The position numbers and the translations under genes were made by a program. The notes beneath the pieces are model-generated. The model saw nothing but the letters and a program-made list of their open reading frames with translations. It was not told the origin of the DNA and searched no databases. Below are positions 1,963 through 14,820 of a stretch of DNA of 21,392 nucleotides, piece by piece. This DNA comes from a virus: the IMG/VR virus record IMGVR_UViG_3300030329_003444, positions 1 through 21,392 of that record; one strand, given 5' to 3'. Each line of letters starts with the position of its first letter. The stretch's first letter is position 1.

Positions 1963-2702
1963 GGCGCACATTCCCAATGCGACCAGCCGCCCCCCGCACG
2001 ATCCACCAAAAACCTCGCCGCCTGCGTCGCCTGCAACGGATCCAACCGGGCCGCAGGGTCCGGGTCCACCCCGGCATCCTCCGCGACCCACAGCCAGGTT
2101 CGCTGAATGAACTGAAACAGCCCAGCGGCACTTTTCGTTTGCGGCGTCTTGTTCTTCGCACCAGTCCAGATCGCGTCCGGGTTCCACGACGATTCACACG
2201 CGACCACCGCGGCGGCATAGTCGTACTCGTCGCCGGGGAAATACTCCCGCACGATGTCCTCTAAGTGTTCACGGGTCACCAGCTCAGGCTGCGCCGTCGG
2301 AGCAGCCGACACCTCCTTTTCTGTGGTTGTGTCAGCTTCCTGAGCCGGTGACCCGCTTTCGTCTAAGTGGTGGGGGTCAGGGGAATCGAACCCCTGTACC
2401 CGCGCAACCAACATGCGATGACAACACGTTGATGCAGCGGGCCGAAACCGATTCACCCCCGACGAGTCAGCCTCTAAATCCAAACTTTTCCGTCCCGTTT
2501 CGGGAGACAACACCGCCGTCAGAACCTCGGGGGTCCAACCATCTGACAGCGATAGGGGATCGGACGCTGCTTGATGGTGTTGAGAGGGGGAGAACCCCGA
2601 GATACCTGCGGCGGCGCTGTCTCCCTGTGCCCGTTCACCAAACAGCAACGCGCAGACAAGCATCACTGCGGTGCCAAGCACGATTGCAAACCACTGCTTC
2701 AT
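1959..2702 (-). CDS. Secreted transglycosylase/lysozyme-like protein with an embedded RNA-like element
   Basis: 247 residues starting at an ATG in an ATGA overlap, so the N-terminus is supported by coupling. Residues 4-22 are a hydrophobic signal segment. Residues 28-140 are a low-complexity Ser/Ala/Asp/Glu linker. Residues 146-247 form a transglycosylase/Rpf-like domain: E170 in ACESSWNP is the likely catalytic acid, followed by AAGLFQF, RTW and the terminal GWSHWECA. Codons 81-112 lie inside a sequence that also folds as a tmRNA-like RNA (2368-2460). The protein would cleave peptidoglycan outside the membrane. Its place in the early operon, away from the late amidase and holin, argues for a role other than lysis, or for remodelling. 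An alternative is that an RNA gene was captured inside the linker. Confidence 0.85.
   Translation of the reverse strand: MKQWFAIVLGTAVMLVCALLFGERAQGDSAAAGISGFSPSQHHQAASDPLSLSDGWTPEVLTAVLSPETGRKSLDLEADSSGVNRFRPAASTCCHRMLVARVQGFDSPDPHHLDESGSPAQEADTTTEKEVSAAPTAQPELVTREHLEDIVREYFPGDEYDYAAAVVACESSWNPDAIWTGAKNKTPQTKSAAGLFQFIQRTWLWVAEDAGVDPDPAARLDPLQATQAARFLVDRAGGGWSHWECAP
2368..2460 (-). ncRNA. tmRNA-like minimal tRNA-like element ending in CCA
   Basis: On the minus strand the 5' end GGGGGTGAATCGGTTTCG resembles the conserved 5' end of tmRNA (ssrA: GGGGCTGAACGGTTTCGAC). It pairs with GACCCCC-A-CCA at 2378-2368: six acceptor pairs, with a G-G clash at the seventh. The T arm is perfect: AGGGG (2395-2391), loop TTCGATT, CCCCT (2383-2379). 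Between the D-like loop and the T arm is one long imperfect helix of about 15 pairs (2441-2425 with 2415-2399) and a 9-base loop TTGTCATCG. This matches the tRNA-like domain plus a P2-like helix. No space exists for a tag reading frame or pseudoknots. The G3-U70 alanine identity pair is absent (G3-C70). There is no normal D stem. It may be a functional mini-RNA, a relic of an old ssrA attachment site, or a degenerate tRNA. Processing is unproven. Confidence 0.6.
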
Positions 2703-2995
2703 ACCGGGTGATGACCGTTCGTGGAAAAATCACCCAAGTCGGGATCGTCAAGGCGGGCAGCAATCTCAAACAAGGTGTCCGCGAGGCTGACCAAGGTCGG
2801 CTTCGACAAGGCAACCGACGCCTCGCGCAGCCACTCACGGGCGATGTCTAACGATTCATTCACATCCGGCGCGGGTGCCACCCAAATGACAGCTTCCCGG
2901 TTATCGGCGTCGTCGTTCCGCACCATGAGGGCGCGTTCACCACGGTCACAAACAACGATGTATACGTTTTCAGGGTCGTCGGTTAGCGAAATCAC
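2699..2995 (-). CDS. Hypothetical protein between WhiB-like 2 and transglycosylase
   Basis: 98 residues from the GTG at 2995, a GTGA overlap with the upstream WhiB-like stop. The longer frame to 3133 adds an Arg/Pro-rich antisense-like N-terminus and is rejected. Residues 1-45 alternate beta strands (ENVYIVVCDRG, EAVIWVAPA). Residues 48-90 are amphipathic helices (SLDIAREWLREAS, LVSLADTLFEIAARLDD). The stop overlaps the transglycosylase start (ATGA), so the two are probably translated together. Family not recognised. Confidence 0.62.
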   Translation of the reverse strand: MISLTDDPENVYIVVCDRGERALMVRNDDADNREAVIWVAPAPDVNESLDIAREWLREASVALSKPTLVSLADTLFEIAARLDDPDLGDFSTNGHHPV

Positions 2996-3237
2996 CCTGC
3001 TTCTCCCAGTCGTACAGTGTCCTCCGGGGGTTCGTCGTCCCACAGCCAGCCGCGGGCGCGACCGCCCCACACACCGAACTCCTCTCGCCGCCCTGCCTCG
3101 TAACATCGGCGGCGAACTTCGCAGCCTCGACAAATGTCCAAAGCAGTCTCGACATACCGTTTCTCAAAAAAGATTTGAACCGGTTGACCGACGCAAGCCC
3201 CATTTTTTTTCCAGTCATGCCGGTTGCGTCGTCCCAC
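2992..3237 (-). CDS. WhiB-family iron-sulfur protein (phage WhiB-like 2)
   Basis: 81 residues using the GTG at 3237, which has GGAG 7 bases upstream. It overlaps the upstream gene by 23 bases. The motif order is D8-W9-x5-C15, then C36-x2-C39-x5-C45 (ICRGCEVRRRC) and GVWGG at 55-59, followed by an Arg-rich segment and an acidic tail. All four cluster ligands and the sigma-contact turn are present. It is shorter than most host WhiB proteins and differs strongly from the other copy at 1660-1962, so it is not a recent duplicate. An ATG at 3218 makes the usual ATGA overlap but is in another frame. Using it would require a -1 slip on the eight-A run just downstream. The GTG start needs no such event. 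Confidence 0.85.
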   Translation of the reverse strand: MGRRNRHDWKKNGACVGQPVQIFFEKRYVETALDICRGCEVRRRCYEAGRREEFGVWGGRARGWLWDDEPPEDTVRLGEAG

Positions 3238-3559
3238 CAAGCCGCTCCAAAATGGCTGTCTGCGTGTCAGACAGACGCGGCTCGTTCCGTCTACGTTCTT
3301 CCCGGGCAGCAATATCAAGGGCTGTCGCCCATGCCCGCTGCGAAGTCCATTTCCAACAGTTGTTGAGCGCCTGAAAGATCACCTCCTGGTCGAAGCCGCC
3401 TTCGACTGCTTCTCGGATGCGTTTCTTGATTGTTTCTTCGCGAGTGGATGGCAGCAGCGGGCGACAATCCGGCGTGTCCCGCCACGCCTCAAACATTCGG
3501 TCCGCAACCGCCTTCGGGGCAGTCGATTCGTACCCCTCAAACAACGCGAGATCAGTCAT
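3215..3559 (-). CDS. Hypothetical helical protein, possible replication/primosome role
   Basis: 114 residues from the second of two tandem ATGs, overlapping the upstream stop by 8 bases (ATGACTGA). The first ATG at 3562 would add one Met. The protein is largely helical. Residues 40-80 (REETIKKRIREAVEGGFDQEVIFQALNNCWKWTS, broken across a helix boundary) resemble the C-terminal helical regions seen in some phage replication and primosome proteins, but the similarity is general. The C-terminus is Arg/Glu-rich. No catalytic residues are apparent. Position among recombination genes fits a DNA-metabolism role. Confidence 0.62.
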   Translation of the reverse strand: MTDLALFEGYESTAPKAVADRMFEAWRDTPDCRPLLPSTREETIKKRIREAVEGGFDQEVIFQALNNCWKWTSQRAWATALDIAAREERRRNEPRLSDTQTAILERLGGTTQPA

Positions 3560-5712: not shown

Positions 5713-5849
5713 TCCGTCACCTCACGCTTCGTGTCGCACTTAGGGCAACGCTGCTCATGCCTCTCCCAAATCGACGGCGCAACCCAGCAGCTGCACGCTT
5801 CGCACTTTTCAGGACGGCGATCACGACGCTTCACGCCCAACGCACTCAC
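5709..5849 (-). CDS. Zinc-ribbon peptide, 46 residues
   Basis: A short gene fitting exactly between two neighbours. Its GTG start overlaps the nuclease stop as GTGA, and its TGA overlaps the next ATG as ATGA. Reading the minus strand gives VSALGVKRRDRRPEKCEACS, then CWVAPSIWERHEQRCPKCD, then a short charged tail. The pairs C16-x2-C19 (C21 also nearby) and C35-x2-C38 are spaced as in a zinc ribbon. The N-terminus is strongly basic. Both perfect overlaps make it a real gene despite its size. It may assist the adjacent Cas4-like nuclease or act as a small nucleic-acid-binding factor. Confidence 0.82.
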   Translation of the reverse strand: MSALGVKRRDRRPEKCEACSCWVAPSIWERHEQRCPKCDTKREVTE

Positions 5850-6736
5850 GACGCCGCCTCCAACGGAGCGTCCGCCAACCACGACTCCCGAACCACCAAC
5901 GGAGCCTCAGCCACCGGCACCTGGCCCGACGGCAACTCCGCGCAATAGTCACGCACCCGGCAATAGCGACAGTTCCACGGCTGACCTTTCTTCGCCCCAT
6001 ATTTCGGAGGGACATCAACCAGCCCGTGCCCCGGAACATTTCGGGCAGGGATCAAGTTGCCCTGCACCTGCTCCCAGATCGCCTGCATCCGATGCAACTC
6101 GTCATATGCGAGCTGCTCCAACGTCTGCCCCGTGTCTCCGAACAAGTCATCGAGGTAGAACGTCCACTCCATCGACTCGCCCGCCGTGATCTTGTCCCGA
6201 TACGACGTTTCACGGGCGCAGTAGAAAATCATCACCCGGCGAATCCCCAGCCCCAGCGCGTAAATCGCCGCCTGCACAACCTCTTTCCGCTCAGGGCCGT
6301 TCTCGCGCGCCAACTTGAAACCAAATCCGCCCTTGTATTTCGCCTCGTATACAACTCGGCTCTGCCCCGACGGATGCCGCCTACACCCCATCGTTGCGAC
6401 CCCATCCGCCGACCCCGACACGGTGAAGCCAAGATGCGTCAACACCACCGGCACCTCAGCCTCAAAATCGTCCAGCACATAAGCCAACGCCTCCTGCATC
6501 AACTCATGGCCCGAGTTCCCCTGGTGCATCGCAACACCCGACGCCCCCGACGGGACATGGCAATCGGGCACCCCCGCGGCCGACAACGCCGATTGGCGGG
6601 CGCACCCACCAGACCCAGACGCCCGCATCCCATAACCAAGCACCGTGGGCTTCGGCCCATCCCGCTCCGCCTTTGCCTGCAAATACAGGTCGATGGCGCT
6701 TGCGATGAAACCACCGCTTCCGCTACTGTCATCCAT
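5846..6736 (-). CDS. Cas4/RecB-like exonuclease (PD-(D/E)XK with C-terminal cysteines)
   Basis: 296 residues from the ATG at 6736, which has GGGGG 7 bases upstream. The ATG at 6742 is too close to that site. Catalytic elements appear in order: a Cys near residue 45 (SGGCARQS), GSADGVA (metal-binding Asp), VVYEAKYK (E-x-K) and VVQAAIYALGL (the Q-x3-Y motif of RecB-type nucleases). Three cysteines close the domain (NCRYCRVRDYC). The first Cys plus the C-terminal trio is the Cas4/AddB-type arrangement that holds an iron-sulfur cluster. It would resect DNA ends for the annealing protein three genes downstream. It is the first gene of the leftward operon, opening opposite the attachment region. 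Confidence 0.82.
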   Translation of the reverse strand: MDDSSGSGGFIASAIDLYLQAKAERDGPKPTVLGYGMRASGSGGCARQSALSAAGVPDCHVPSGASGVAMHQGNSGHELMQEALAYVLDDFEAEVPVVLTHLGFTVSGSADGVATMGCRRHPSGQSRVVYEAKYKGGFGFKLARENGPERKEVVQAAIYALGLGIRRVMIFYCARETSYRDKITAGESMEWTFYLDDLFGDTGQTLEQLAYDELHRMQAIWEQVQGNLIPARNVPGHGLVDVPPKYGAKKGQPWNCRYCRVRDYCAELPSGQVPVAEAPLVVRESWLADAPLEAAS

Positions 6737-6744
6737 GTCCATAC

Positions 6745-6758
6745 CCCCAAGTACGGGG
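6745..6758. promoter_or_regulatory. Inverted repeat that carries two opposed ribosome-binding sites
   Basis: CCCC-AAGTAC-GGGG forms a 4-base-pair palindrome. On the minus strand its G-run (extended to GGGGG) lies 7 bases before the ATG at 6736 of the nuclease gene. On the plus strand its GGGG lies 8 bases before the ATG at 6767 of the GcvT-like fragment. One short element thus serves two divergent starts. Whether the hairpin itself modulates translation is unknown. Confidence 0.45.
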
Positions 6759-6766
6759 AAGCACTG

Positions 6767-6874
6767 ATGCAGCTCGCCATCGGGTCGAGGTTGCGGAAGT
6801 CCCCCTACTGGGAGTCAGTCACCCGATTAGGGGTGCAATCCGCATCCGTCTACAACCACATGCTGATGCCGACC
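6767..6874 (+). pseudogene. 5' fragment of a GcvT-family aminomethyltransferase gene (host-derived, at attP)
   Basis: 36 codons from an ATG with GGGG 8 bases upstream. They encode an N-terminus with IGSRLRKSPYWESV and SVYNHMLMPT, which resembles the start of GcvT/DmdA-like aminomethyltransferases, where an 'R-x-SP(Y/F)-x8-10-G...(S/T)-x-YN(H/K)M-x-MP' pattern is typical. After MPT the frame runs on to 7018 with no resemblance to the family. The break falls exactly at an inverted repeat next to the integrase. The natural reading is that the phage carries the first part of its target gene so that, after integration, the host gene regains a start codon and ribosome site. The family call is by memory of the motif; the host gene is not in the window. 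Confidence 0.68.
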
Positions 6875-6879
6875 ATCAG
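6863..6879. other. Candidate attP core (CTGATG-N5-CATCAG)
   Basis: Two 6-base arms, CTGATG and CATCAG, flank CCGAC. This is the shape of a tyrosine-recombinase core, with two inverted core sites around a short overlap. The similarity to a GcvT-like gene ends within it (codons for MPT), and the integrase begins a few tens of bases downstream. Strand exchange would occur inside or beside CCGAC. Arm-type sites were not identified. Confidence 0.55.
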
Positions 6880-6903: not shown

Positions 6904-6933
6904 AACCTACCACTGTGAACCACGAACTGTCAA
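6904..6933 (-). promoter_or_regulatory. Candidate leftward early promoter
   Basis: On the minus strand a perfect TTGACA (6933-6928) is followed after 18 bases by TAGGTT (6909-6904), a poor -10. Transcription would enter the early operon through a leader of roughly 160 bases that crosses the attP region. The -35 sequence extends as TTGACAGTTCG and matches TTGACAGGTCG of the repressor promoter at 7873, so both may be controlled by the same protein. The element lies inside the 5' end of the integrase gene. Confidence 0.35.
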
Positions 6934-7865
6934 GTACCTCTGGACTTGCGGTACCCACGGATACGCGCTACACCAACGACATGGGGGAGTTGCGTGCTCT
7001 GATCGACCGCTTCATTGACGAGCGTCGCCCCCCCTACGCGAAGGATTCAGCTACGACGATTCGGGGGATGCTGCGTCAGTTCTGCAAAGAATCCGGTTGT
7101 CGGGCCGTCGGGGATCTCACGGTGGAGGCGTTGACCGAATGGGTGCATGACCCTACGAAGTCGCCTGCGTATCGGCGTTCGCGCTTTTCGGCGGCGCGTT
7201 CGTTTAGCAGCTTTCTGGTTCAGCACGGCTATTTGGTGCGGAATCTTGGGTGGGAGATTCCGGCCCCGAAGGTGCCTCGTCGGGTGCCGAGGCCGCTGAC
7301 TCATGCGGAGGCTTCGCAGTTGATGGCGACGGCCCGCGCCGTGGACTCGGACTCACGTTCCGCGTTGGGAGTGAGCAATCAGCTGATCGTTTCTTTGATG
7401 TGCCAGGAGGGGCTGCGTGCAATCGAGGTGCGTCGGCTGGAGGTTGCTGATGTTGATTTTGAATCTGCGACGATCACGGTGGTCGGGAAGGGTTCGCACG
7501 AACGTCTGCTGCCGCTATCGCAGCAGTCGTTGAGGTTGCTGCGGACGCATTTGGCGGCGACCGGCGCATCGTGGGGGCCGGTGTTGACGAAGCGTGGGTC
7601 GCATGAGCCTCTTACTAAGTCCGCCATGAATCATCGGACGATGGCGTTGTTTGAACGTGCTGGGGTGAAGGGTGGTCCCCGTGATGGGAAGTCGGGTCAC
7701 GCGATGAGGGCGACTGCGGCGACTGATGTCTATGAAAAGAGCGGCCACGATGTGCGTGCTGTTCAAGAGATGCTTGGTCATCAGTCGTTGGCTACGACCG
7801 AGGCTTACTTGCGTAAGGCGTCGGTTCACCGGCTGCGTGAGGCGATGGCTGGCCGCAGCTACTAA
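6915..7865 (+). CDS. int: Tyrosine-recombinase integrase
   Basis: 316 residues from the GTG at 6915. A TTG at 6888 and an ATG at 6981 are alternatives, and none has a good ribosome site. Residues 23-105 are the helical SAM-like core-binding domain (LRALIDRFIDERRPPY...TIRGMLRQFCKESG). The catalytic domain follows from about residue 130, with all active-site residues: R168 (QEGLRAIEVRRL), K192 (VVGKGSHERLLPL), H262-x2-R265 (SGHAMRATAAT), H289 (MLGHQS) and the nucleophile Y298 (TTEAYLRKA). It would integrate and, with a directionality factor, excise the phage. It lies directly beside the attP candidate and upstream of the repressor, the usual lysogeny arrangement. No separate excisionase is recognised here; one of the small HTH proteins might serve. 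Confidence 0.95.
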   Translation: MNHELSSTSGLAVPTDTRYTNDMGELRALIDRFIDERRPPYAKDSATTIRGMLRQFCKESGCRAVGDLTVEALTEWVHDPTKSPAYRRSRFSAARSFSSFLVQHGYLVRNLGWEIPAPKVPRRVPRPLTHAEASQLMATARAVDSDSRSALGVSNQLIVSLMCQEGLRAIEVRRLEVADVDFESATITVVGKGSHERLLPLSQQSLRLLRTHLAATGASWGPVLTKRGSHEPLTKSAMNHRTMALFERAGVKGGPRDGKSGHAMRATAATDVYEKSGHDVRAVQEMLGHQSLATTEAYLRKASVHRLREAMAGRSY

Positions 7866-7935: not shown

Positions 7936-8724
7936 GTGAATGAACTTGCTGTTGCCGTTCGACGGCACCGCACTACTGTCTTGGGGTTGTCGCAAGTCGC
8001 AGCCGCAGAGCAACTTGGCTTTACGCAAGCGAAGTTGTCGCGAATCGAGTTGGGGTCTAGTTCGATTCGTTCGCCGCAAGACTTGAAGGTTATAGCCGAC
8101 TGGCTGGGCATTTCTGTGGATCGTGCGGTGAAGTTGGCTGAGTCTCCGGTGGGAACGGAGAAAGGTGTTTTGGATCTACAGCAGCAGTTGTCGGCTTCAA
8201 CGGAGGCGTTGACTGAACTGCTGAGGGGGTTGACGGCTGCGGTGGATCGCCACACTGGCACGGTGGGGGATTTGAGAGAGCAACTGGATGTAGTTGCGGC
8301 GATGAATCGGGACTTGTTGGAGGACGCCGAGCCTGGTTCTAAAGCGATTGGTCGATGTTTGCGGGCGAAGCGTCAGCACCTACAGATGACGCTGACTGAT
8401 GTTGCGCGCCTGTTTGGGTGTTCAGCTTCCACGGTTGGGTGGATGGAGATTGGTGTTTTCCATCCGTGGCGTTATGTCGAGCAGCTGCATCGTTTTCTGG
8501 AGATCCCCGTAGATGAACTTGAAGCCGTAATGGCCGCAGAGTCTGAGGAGGAGATGAGGTCGTCAATCGCGAATGTTGAGAGGCGGCTGGTTATGCAAAG
8601 TTGGGTCAACGAGTCTTTGGAGACAGCCTTGTCGCGCGCTGAGTCGGTGATGGGGATTTTGGAGGCAGAAGAAACTTCGGAAGTCGAGCAGATTGTGACC
8701 GGCGAGGAGGCGCGAAATGAGTGA
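7936..8724 (+). CDS. Repressor-like protein with two Cro/CI-type HTH domains
   Basis: 262 residues, GTG start with AGGGGG 9 bases upstream. Residues 4-66 form an Xre-type HTH (LGLSQVAAAEQLGFTQAKLSRIELG, recognition helix near 28-37). Residues 77-125 are a helical linker. Residues 136-197 form a second, more diverged HTH (LTDVARLFGCSASTVGWMEIG, with FHPW after it). The C-terminal 60 residues are a Glu-rich amphipathic helix that may oligomerise. No peptidase S24 domain is present, so induction by RecA-type self-cleavage is unlikely. Its own strong promoter and position after int fit the lysogeny repressor. The double HTH suggests binding to two half-sites from one chain. Confidence 0.85.
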   Translation: MNELAVAVRRHRTTVLGLSQVAAAEQLGFTQAKLSRIELGSSSIRSPQDLKVIADWLGISVDRAVKLAESPVGTEKGVLDLQQQLSASTEALTELLRGLTAAVDRHTGTVGDLREQLDVVAAMNRDLLEDAEPGSKAIGRCLRAKRQHLQMTLTDVARLFGCSASTVGWMEIGVFHPWRYVEQLHRFLEIPVDELEAVMAAESEEEMRSSIANVERRLVMQSWVNESLETALSRAESVMGILEAEETSEVEQIVTGEEARNE

Positions 8725-9571: not shown

Positions 9572-10759
9572 CTATTTGTTGGAACCGCGGGCCGTATAAA
9601 GTTGCCCGCGGAATATCGCCTCGCCCCGAGAAACGGCAACAAGATCGACATTGAAGTTTCGGTCGCCGTCCTCGTACTCGACAACCGCTAGCCCCTGCTG
9701 CCAATCCTCGGTCGCGTTGACTGGACGGCCATGCGGGTCGGTGGACCCTTTTGACGACGGGACCGCTCCGTCGATGCGACAGAGACACCCCGGCGATGCG
9801 GCAAGGCTGCGTTTGGCTCCCCCAAAGGTGCGGCGTGTCTTGTGCTGCAACTCAATGCGGTGTATGTGCCCGTGGATCACCGAAGTGCGTTCGTCATCGA
9901 CAACGGCGGCGACAGTGGAGCCGCGGCTTCGCGTCGTGTGCCCGTGGATGCACGCGAGGTTCTCGTTGATCCAGAAGATCCCCGCCGGGTACCCCCCGAC
10001 GTATTCGACACGCAGATGATCTTCGTCTAAGCGCAGAAGAAACGGGACGGACGCGACGGGCCAGTCGTCTGGGGTTTCTGCCCGTTTCAGGTGCAGAGCT
10101 GCTGCGGCGTTGGTCGTGACTGCCTTCTGCAACCTGCGGTCATGGTTGCCTTCCAGCAAAACAATGTGGGCGTCGGGGGCGTTGGCCCTCTGTTCACACA
10201 GGAACTGGTGGCCTCGGTCGATGGACGCCTGAGTGGTCTTCGCGAACGCCGGTTCTTGCTCAAACTTGCCGAACTCTGCGAAATCGAGAAAATCCCCAAG
10301 GTTGACGATCAGATCCGGGTTCAGATCACGAACGATTCGGATGGCAACCGCCATCGCTTCCTCGTCGTGGAATGGATCGAGGGAACCATCCTCAAACATG
10401 CGGTACCCGATCTGGGGATCGGGAAGGATCACCGCAGTCTTGAACCGGTTCTTGGTTGGCCGCGATTTGGGCGCATGTCTGATGGCGACTGGTGCCGCCT
10501 GCTGCACGACAGGCCACTCCGGTCCCGTCGCCCACGCAGGGTTGATAACAACCGACACCCCGCCGAGGTCATGGATTTCCGCTTCGCCGTCGTCGTTTTT
10601 TGTTACCCCCTGCCATTCGGAGATTCGCACCTTTTCAACCGACCCGATTTCCCCCAGGTCGATTCCCGACCGTTCCAGCAGGTCAGAAATCTTCCCGAGG
10701 CGGGACCGTGCCCTAGTGCCAGCTGCGGATGTCTCCGCGAACTCGTCTAGGTCGGTCAC
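9572..10759 (-). CDS. Calcineurin-like metallophosphoesterase
   Basis: 395 residues from the GTG at 10759 (GTGA overlap). An extension to 10834 is a shadow. The phosphoesterase core runs from residue 107: ILPDPQIGY (D114 and Q116, with Gln replacing the usual His of D-x-H), NLGDFLDF (GDxxD, D156), EGNHDRR (N205-H206-D207), IHGHT (272-274) and VIHGHIHRIE (G297-H298-I299-H300). The 105-residue N-terminus and C-terminal 95 residues are extra. Enzymes of this fold hydrolyse phosphodiesters or phosphomonoesters with two metals. The D-x-Q start is seen in some phage versions. Its substrate, nucleic acid or nucleotide, is not evident. It lies among tail genes before the holin, so it may be packaged or act late. 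Confidence 0.88.
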   Translation of the reverse strand: MTDLDEFAETSAAGTRARSRLGKISDLLERSGIDLGEIGSVEKVRISEWQGVTKNDDGEAEIHDLGGVSVVINPAWATGPEWPVVQQAAPVAIRHAPKSRPTKNRFKTAVILPDPQIGYRMFEDGSLDPFHDEEAMAVAIRIVRDLNPDLIVNLGDFLDFAEFGKFEQEPAFAKTTQASIDRGHQFLCEQRANAPDAHIVLLEGNHDRRLQKAVTTNAAAALHLKRAETPDDWPVASVPFLLRLDEDHLRVEYVGGYPAGIFWINENLACIHGHTTRSRGSTVAAVVDDERTSVIHGHIHRIELQHKTRRTFGGAKRSLAASPGCLCRIDGAVPSSKGSTDPHGRPVNATEDWQQGLAVVEYEDGDRNFNVDLVAVSRGEAIFRGQLYTARGSNK

Positions 10760-10983
10760 AGGCGGTTCCGTTCGGCAATCAACACCTTGATCTTCGCTGG
10801 GGTGGCACCCTCGTAGCCGAGCGATTCCAGCCATGCGACCACCACCGACGGTGGAGCCTGAGATTCGATGATTTGCGTCACCAACTCGTCGGGCAACTGG
10901 TCAACCCAGCGGCGATGCGTCCTCCCCGCTGCGTGGACCTGAGCGAACTCGGTCAGCGTTATGGCACCGTCACCAGTCGGCAT
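10756..10983 (-). CDS. Hypothetical small helical protein
   Basis: 75 residues from the ATG at 10983 with AAGGA 8 bases upstream. It overlaps the nozzle-like gene by 25 bases. Helical throughout: LTEFAQVHAAGRTHRRWVDQLPDELVTQIIESQ, then VVAWLESLGYEGATPAKIKVLIAERN, each separated by a short turn, reminiscent of small phage DNA-binding or packaging-associated proteins. No clear HTH score can be given by eye. Coupled by GTGA to the metallophosphoesterase gene. Confidence 0.65.
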   Translation of the reverse strand: MPTGDGAITLTEFAQVHAAGRTHRRWVDQLPDELVTQIIESQAPPSVVVAWLESLGYEGATPAKIKVLIAERNRL

Positions 10984-13691: not shown

Positions 13692-13996
13692 GTCCCGCCA
13701 CCCTTGATGTCACTGTGCGCCTTCTCCATCGCACGCCGCTGCCGATCAGTTTTTGCCAGTTCACCGGTTTCGACTTCAACCGGCGACTGCGCCCGAGCCT
13801 CCAAATCGCCCGCCCCGCGAATCCCCGGAGGCTGCAACCCGTTGTCCCGCAAGCGCCGGTACGCACCCATGTCGCGATCCAACCGCCTCTCGGCACTTCG
13901 ATTGTCGCCCTTTGAGTTGGCTGCCCCCGTCGAAAACGACAACGATCGAACCTTCTCAGCGAACGCCTTCTTCTCTGCTTCCGTTTGATGACTCAT
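13688..13996 (-). CDS. Small charged protein, possible head-assembly factor
   Basis: 102 residues; ATGA overlaps at both ends show it belongs to the late cluster. It is highly charged and rich in Arg, Glu, Asp and Gly, with helices near 5-20 (EAEKKAFAEKVRSL) and 35-52 (SAERRLDRDMGAYRRLRD), and probably a disordered middle (GLQPPGIRGAGDL). No hydrophobic core for a large fold is obvious. It may bind nucleic acid or assist assembly. Family unknown. Confidence 0.65.
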   Translation of the reverse strand: MSHQTEAEKKAFAEKVRSLSFSTGAANSKGDNRSAERRLDRDMGAYRRLRDNGLQPPGIRGAGDLEARAQSPVEVETGELAKTDRQRRAMEKAHSDIKGGGT

Positions 13997-14820
13997 GCGG
14001 CAACACTCTCCTGAACGTCAATCGCGTACCCGGCAGCCGACAACAGATCGGCTTCTGCTTCTGTCAAATCCGGGCCGACATGCCCGCCGTAAATCGTCCT
14101 GGTGATCGTGGACTCATCCGTTGGCTGCTCCGTCACCACCGACGAACCGTTGACAATCCAAAGGTTCCGGCCCTTAGCGCGGGGGTTGTAGAACCGCGCC
14201 AACCTGTTCTCAGCATGGAACGGGTTGAAGAACTCGTCCCCGACTGGCATCGTTCCCAACGTGTCCGTCGTTCCGGTTTGCACGTTGCGAACCAGCTTCA
14301 ACGACGGCACCGTCGCAGAGCGAGCAATCGTGTCCGGTGTCGGATTCGCCGTCTGTGACGCCTCAGCGGCAGGTAACGCAGCCGCAGCGGCAACAACACC
14401 GGCAGACACAGACACGGTGGATGCAGCAGTCACCGAAGGCACTGCCGCAGCCGCAGCAGTCACCGACGGAGAAACCGCAGCAGTCACCGACAACGTAGGG
14501 GCAGGTGCGGCGACAGTTGCGTCAACCGTGTCAGGAAGCGCAAGGGCCGCGGCTGCCGCCACCGGGGCCGAAACCGCCGCCGCACCCGCCAAAACCGAAG
14601 GAGCAGCATTTGCCGACGCCGTAACCGTCGGCGCAGGAACCGCCGCAACAACTGCAACTACACCAGCTGCCACATCAGCGTTACCTGTAACCGTTGATGC
14701 AGGAACCGCTGCAACAGCCGCAACCGTTGAAACGGCGACGGTTGCCGTCAGAACGCCGCGGTAAGACGCCGTGGCTTCCCGGTAGTCAATACCGGAATGG
14801 CGATAATCAAGCCCCGCCAC
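13993..14820 (-). CDS. Ala/Val-rich structural protein with a C-terminal domain
   Basis: 275 residues, GTG start with a 14-base overlap into the membrane-protein gene. Residues 3-21 contain a Tyr-repeat (DYRHSGIDYREATASYRG). Residues 23-165 are an Ala/Val/Thr/Pro low-complexity tract of short strand-length units separated by Pro, with repeated TVTA, VVAAVPA and AAPS-type segments. Residues 175-275 form a folded end (FFNPFHAENRLARFYNPRAKGRNLWIVNG, then a strand-rich part ending DLLSAAGYAIDVQES). A long repetitive shaft with a compact end fits a fibre or spike, or a head decoration. The mirror-image open frame on the plus strand (14225-14764) is a by-product of GC-rich codon repeats. Confidence 0.72.
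   Translation of the reverse strand: MAGLDYRHSGIDYREATASYRGVLTATVAVSTVAAVAAVPASTVTGNADVAAGVVAVVAAVPAPTVTASANAAPSVLAGAAAVSAPVAAAAALALPDTVDATVAAPAPTLSVTAAVSPSVTAAAAAVPSVTAASTVSVSAGVVAAAAALPAAEASQTANPTPDTIARSATVPSLKLVRNVQTGTTDTLGTMPVGDEFFNPFHAENRLARFYNPRAKGRNLWIVNGSSVVTEQPTDESTITRTIYGGHVGPDLTEAEADLLSAAGYAIDVQESVAA

Follow-up and report, generated by a model that had tools for sequence, protein, structure and literature searches.

Why would a phage carry what looks like the beginning of a host metabolic gene directly ahead of its integrase? This question is raised by a virus record of 21,392 bases (hereafter the window, meaning the whole stretch of DNA analysed), which is probably a fragment of a phage genome. 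The window encodes a tyrosine integrase, an HTH regulator, an exonuclease, a single-strand annealing protein, an SSB, a RusA-like resolvase, an endolysin and a major head protein, and this content, as annotated, is that of a temperate tailed phage. It also encodes an alanine/valine-rich repetitive protein of 275 aa that has no PHROG match (13993-14820, minus strand). We consider it very likely that this locus serves as attP for a temperate, marine-type actinobacterial phage, that the phage's tyrosine integrase directs insertion into the 5' end of a chromosomal DmdA-like (GcvT-family) gene, and that the phage carries a replacement for the gene start (Table 1).

Table 1. Features in and around the proposed attachment region, in order of position in the window.
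Feature	Position	Strand	Evidence
Cas4/RecB-type exonuclease, divergent neighbour of the gene start	5846..6742	-	PHROG 1706, E=1.9e-15; 81% identical in L065-L067
24-base gap between divergent starts, with ribosome-site-like GGGGAAG on + (gene start) and GGGGGT on - (exonuclease)	6743..6766		Sequence; conserved in L065
Opening 36 codons of a DmdA-like (GcvT-family) gene, copied in frame, ATG start	6767..6874	+	PRK12486; 3tfh; up to 60% identity to host-type genes, 70% to the related phage copy
CCGTCTACAACCACATG, candidate att core, common to both phages and several host-type genes	6846..6862	+	Alignments; exact-match scan of loci
CTGATGCCGACC, extra gene-like codons (LMPT) that the window has and the related phage lacks	6863..6874	+	Alignment with L065
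CTGATG-N5-CATCAG inverted repeat, judged incidental	6863..6879		Missing from L065; 17% of shuffles have such a repeat
Tyrosine integrase, GTG start at about 6915 (longest frame from TTG 6888)	6915..7865	+	PF00589, E=1.8e-28; TIGR02224, E=5e-37
HTH regulator (probable repressor), same module as the integrase	7936..8724	+	PF13560, E=2.8e-19; absent along with the integrase in L067
Metallophosphoesterase, right-hand neighbour of the integration module; adjoins the exonuclease in relatives without the module	9572..10834	-	PHROG 20266, E=4.6e-92; L067, L112

The window carries an in-frame DmdA-like gene start

In translation, the frame opened by the ATG at 6767 reads MQLAIGSRLRKSPYWESVTRLGVQSASVYNHMLMPT for 36 codons and then diverges. 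An earlier note on this DNA had proposed that this ATG, with the ribosome-site-like GGGGAAG visible upstream of it, opens a GcvT/DmdA-like N-terminus, and profile and structure searches bore this out. The 36-codon peptide matched the NCBIfam model PRK12486 (DMSP demethylase; residues 3-37 against profile positions 6-40, E=1.7e-7) and the crystallised DmdA in PDB entry 3tfh (DmdA/GcvT-like; residues 3-36, E=1.4e-4), such that the best counterparts of the translated segment among GcvT-family proteins are the N-termini of DMSP demethylase (DmdA)-like members. A Pfam search with the same peptide gave no matches at such short length. The resemblance ends at codon 36, just ahead of the integrase, as the note had also described, and a search with full-length DmdA-like proteins found no later parts of such a gene in the window or in related contigs, which argues for an attachment site.

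The frame lies between two genes of phage type. The adjoining site-specific recombinase is a tyrosine integrase whose catalytic-type residues (R, K, HxxR, H and Y) are invariant in a five-member alignment. A host chromosome joined to phage DNA, either at a prophage edge or by misassembly, would produce a similar picture, since attL or attR would likewise join a gene start to phage DNA, but the exonuclease and integrase directly flank the segment on both sides and the same arrangement recurs in two contigs of a related phage (L065 and L066). A hybrid contig is thus already contradicted, and we regard it as extremely improbable.

The gene start is conserved in a second phage and linked to the integration module

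L065 and L066 are two IMG/VR contigs of one related phage, found through the neighbouring exonuclease among viral contigs; its exonuclease and integrase are 81% and 73% identical to those of the window, respectively. Between these two genes, and adjoining the recombinase as in the window, the related phage carries the gene start LQFASGARVRKSPYWEAVTRSGVQSVTVYNHM, which is in frame, begins with TTG and is 70% identical to the window copy. This second copy matches the same DMSP demethylase family model (E=1.9e-5). Both the family matches of the two copies and the position of an in-frame gene start directly before the integrase in both phages argue for attP. When 70 viral loci with related integrases were compared, a DmdA-like start was seen in no phage but this same relative, which points in the same direction. 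L117 has an integrase (2501-3481) that is 35% identical and an exonuclease-like frame, judged by eye, divergent upstream of it; the layout is the same, and no DmdA-like start is present.

The two gene-start copies differ at 17 positions over 96 bases. The dN/dS ratio based on these 17 differences was about 0.30 in the gene frame, and the other two forward frames gave 1.1 and 3.0 (Fisher test on few sites, p=0.03). This pattern lends support to the attP reading but is not strong evidence for it, and the small number of differences counts against it. The DmdA likeness in L065 ends after GTCTACAACCACATG, 12 bases earlier than in the window, which continues with CTGATGCCGACC; this offset between the two phages counts against an attachment site.

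Because the open frame in the window continues to 7018, the segment might instead encode a small phage protein of 39-84 residues that merely resembles DmdA, or comprise integrase-binding arms with an accidental coding look, for which conservation would be expected of attP arm DNA in any case. However, two independent copies match the same family model, the related phage has an earlier and different end to this frame, and most of the changes between the copies are ones that the gene frame tolerates. We therefore judge a small protein or accidental coding in the arms to be very unlikely.

In L067 (exonuclease 81% and metallophosphoesterase 91% identical) and in L112, the exonuclease lies directly beside the metallophosphoesterase. 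These contigs (L067, 1-4051; L112, 1-5165) lack the gene start, the integrase and the repressor together and are natural module-free variants of the same phage group. Their joint absence indicates that the gene start belongs to the integration module. The metallophosphoesterase itself is 85% identical in L113 (8001-9128) and L114 (8001-9128), where the other genes are mostly unrelated to those of the window, and its sharing by largely unrelated contigs suggests gene exchange.

Phages carry metabolic genes, and the fragment has both a start codon and a ribosome-site-like sequence, so an ancestor could have possessed a whole DmdA-like gene, as an auxiliary metabolic gene, and kept only its start. 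Such a remnant is hard to reconcile with the retention in two phages of practically the same 32-36 codons, in frame and straight before the integrase, with the lack of any trace of the remaining gene, or with L067 and L112, from which both the fragment and the integrase are absent. Furthermore, no whole DmdA-like gene was present on the viral contigs found by the DmdA-like scan. Decay of a complete gene consequently appears to us a poor explanation with little probability.

A conserved 17-base segment is the candidate att core

If the gene start is part of attP, the crossover would fall within or near CCGTCTACAACCACATG, whose 17 bases are matched in several host-type genes. Since this segment encodes a conserved motif in common codons, its presence in hosts fits attB but is no proof of it. 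The earlier note had placed the recombinase core in CTGATG-N5-CATCAG, which occurs once in the record. This assignment did not hold up, because the repeat is absent from L065, 17% of shuffles of the segment contain a repeat of this kind and about 70 such repeats occur in the window; the 6-bp inverted repeat is thus neither conserved nor significant.

Two other candidates were set aside. CAAGTAC arm repeats were rejected as evidence because the right-hand copy falls where the integrase coding sequence begins, a stretch that is itself conserved, and a 26-bp match to genome G338 (L036) was rejected as attB because the motif, which uses common codons, is also present in Proteobacteria (L007, L009 and L013). 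The core is flanked by an imperfect inverted repeat (72%; 6832-6849 and 6957-6974), with a similar pair (78%) at a like place in L065; the right arm lies inside the integrase coding region, so this resemblance may reflect coding conservation.

Recombination at this site would generate two hybrid junctions. At one prophage end, the ribosome site, start codon and N-terminus of the phage would be joined to the remainder of the host gene, the phage bearing a diverged, in-frame replacement of the first 32-36 codons; at the other, the displaced native promoter and gene start would lie ahead of the integrase. The enzyme combining the phage N-terminus with the host remainder would be expected to work, and expression of the host gene might change after integration. 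The phage presumably also supplies a promoter for the restored gene. With only 24 bases between the exonuclease start and the ATG at 6767, such a promoter must overlap the first codons of the exonuclease. A consensus scan found no promoter on the plus strand before the gene start, which counts against attP.

The proposed target gene points to a probable acidimicrobial host

DmdA-like genes were found when genomes were scanned with a pattern, and one of them belongs to a named genome of the Acidimicrobiales that comes from station ALOHA (L005, the same genome as G001). Within the family of the ALOHA genome, which comprises Acidimicrobiia-type actinobacteria, 35 of 48 genomes have a match to the phage gene start, the best being 60% identical (E=1.9e-10). 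No closer match was found in the order, class and phylum samples, and that the nearest host gene starts are just 60% identical counts against the proposed integration. In most host genes the start codon precedes the position of the phage start by two or three codons.

The full-length members of this host family match DmdA best, at 347-380 bits compared to a curated DmdA cut-off of 410, and thus fall below the equivalog threshold; their nearest solved structure is again 3tfh. Accordingly, the host-family gene is best called DmdA-like, with a putative substrate only. DMSP demethylase DmdA (3tfh; PRK12486) is therefore the best family for both the 36 codons and the full-length host-type genes, although the latter differ from it in these scores.

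Two WhiB-type regulator genes lie within this one small phage genome (1660-2187 and 2992-3318, minus strand). Because WhiB-like proteins have been described as confined to Actinobacteria (PMC8612146), the two genes point to an actinobacterial host. The distribution of the DmdA-like gene also points to Actinobacteria, and an acidimicrobial actinobacterium is the probable host.

No lysogen was found in the sampled genomes

We surveyed overlapping samples of 397 genomes from the order, 395 from the class, 48 from the family and 396 from the phylum, all species representatives and many of them bins from metagenomes, in which prophages are often missing. No lysogen, attL or attR, or exact attB was found in these samples, so the prophages with attL and attR in a DmdA-like gene for which the earlier note had proposed a search were not found among the sampled species representatives. 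The lack of these structures from the samples, and of a whole DmdA-like gene on the viral contigs found by the DmdA-like scan, counts against attP.

Likewise, none of the sampled genomes had a close integrase or an N-terminus resembling that of the phage. The best integrases, in G209 and G005, were 34-36% identical and were rejected as signs of lysogeny because they are distant and because that of G005 appears to be inserted at another gene. In the G005 locus (L071), the integrase (1420-2367, 34% identical) adjoins an ORF on the minus strand (1163-1438) that we take, by eye, to be the apparent C-terminal part of D-aminoacyl-tRNA deacylase (dtd). Relatives of the window integrase may thus target other protein genes.

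Replacement of a target gene's start has precedents

The earlier note had considered insertion at the 5' end of a gene to be unusual, which is fair, but the strategy has already been described. In dusA elements, the 5' end of the target is replaced by the element's own sequence (PMC4482086), and IMEVchUSA3 was shown to provide dusA with both a new promoter and an N-terminus of 35 residues that is 61% identical (PMC8409611). The SXT ICE is stated in the latter paper, citing Hochhut and Waldor 1999, to use the same strategy at prfC.

The proven layout of the dusA islands and prophages (PMC4482086; PMC8409611) matches the window in having a tyrosine integrase, an insertion point (predicted in the case of the phage) inside the 5' end of a conserved gene and a diverged replacement start of similar length, which argues for attP. 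The systems differ in target, dusA in one case and a DmdA-like one-carbon gene in the other, and in the probable acidimicrobial host of the phage; moreover, integration and expression are proven for dusA elements, while in our phage both are deduced from sequence. The SXT ICE, to the extent that it is covered in PMC8409611, differs in being a conjugative element of Gammaproteobacteria with prfC as target and proven junctions, whereas the junctions of the phage are predicted. In the literature searched, no GcvT or aminomethyltransferase gene was found in use as an att site, and a separate set of papers, covered by title and abstract, contained no dmdA-targeting prophage. Taken together, the start-replacement strategy is known, while the target gene and the probable host lineage appear to be new.

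With the proposed attP, the gene for a one-carbon (DmdA-like) enzyme would join the few genes known to have their start replaced by integrating elements. The actinobacterial lineage concerned has an open-ocean genome (ALOHA) as its nearest named member. The proposal also gives an uncultured phage group a host assignment that can be tested, and lysogeny may have a direct route to altering the methyl or sulphur metabolism of the host. In a further scenario, which we put forward tentatively and consider rather doubtful, integration would amount to a promoter swap: the DmdA-like gene would come under phage signals in lysogens, with the native promoter and start before the integrase, so that lysogeny would rewire methyl or DMSP-type metabolism and excision would be coupled to it.
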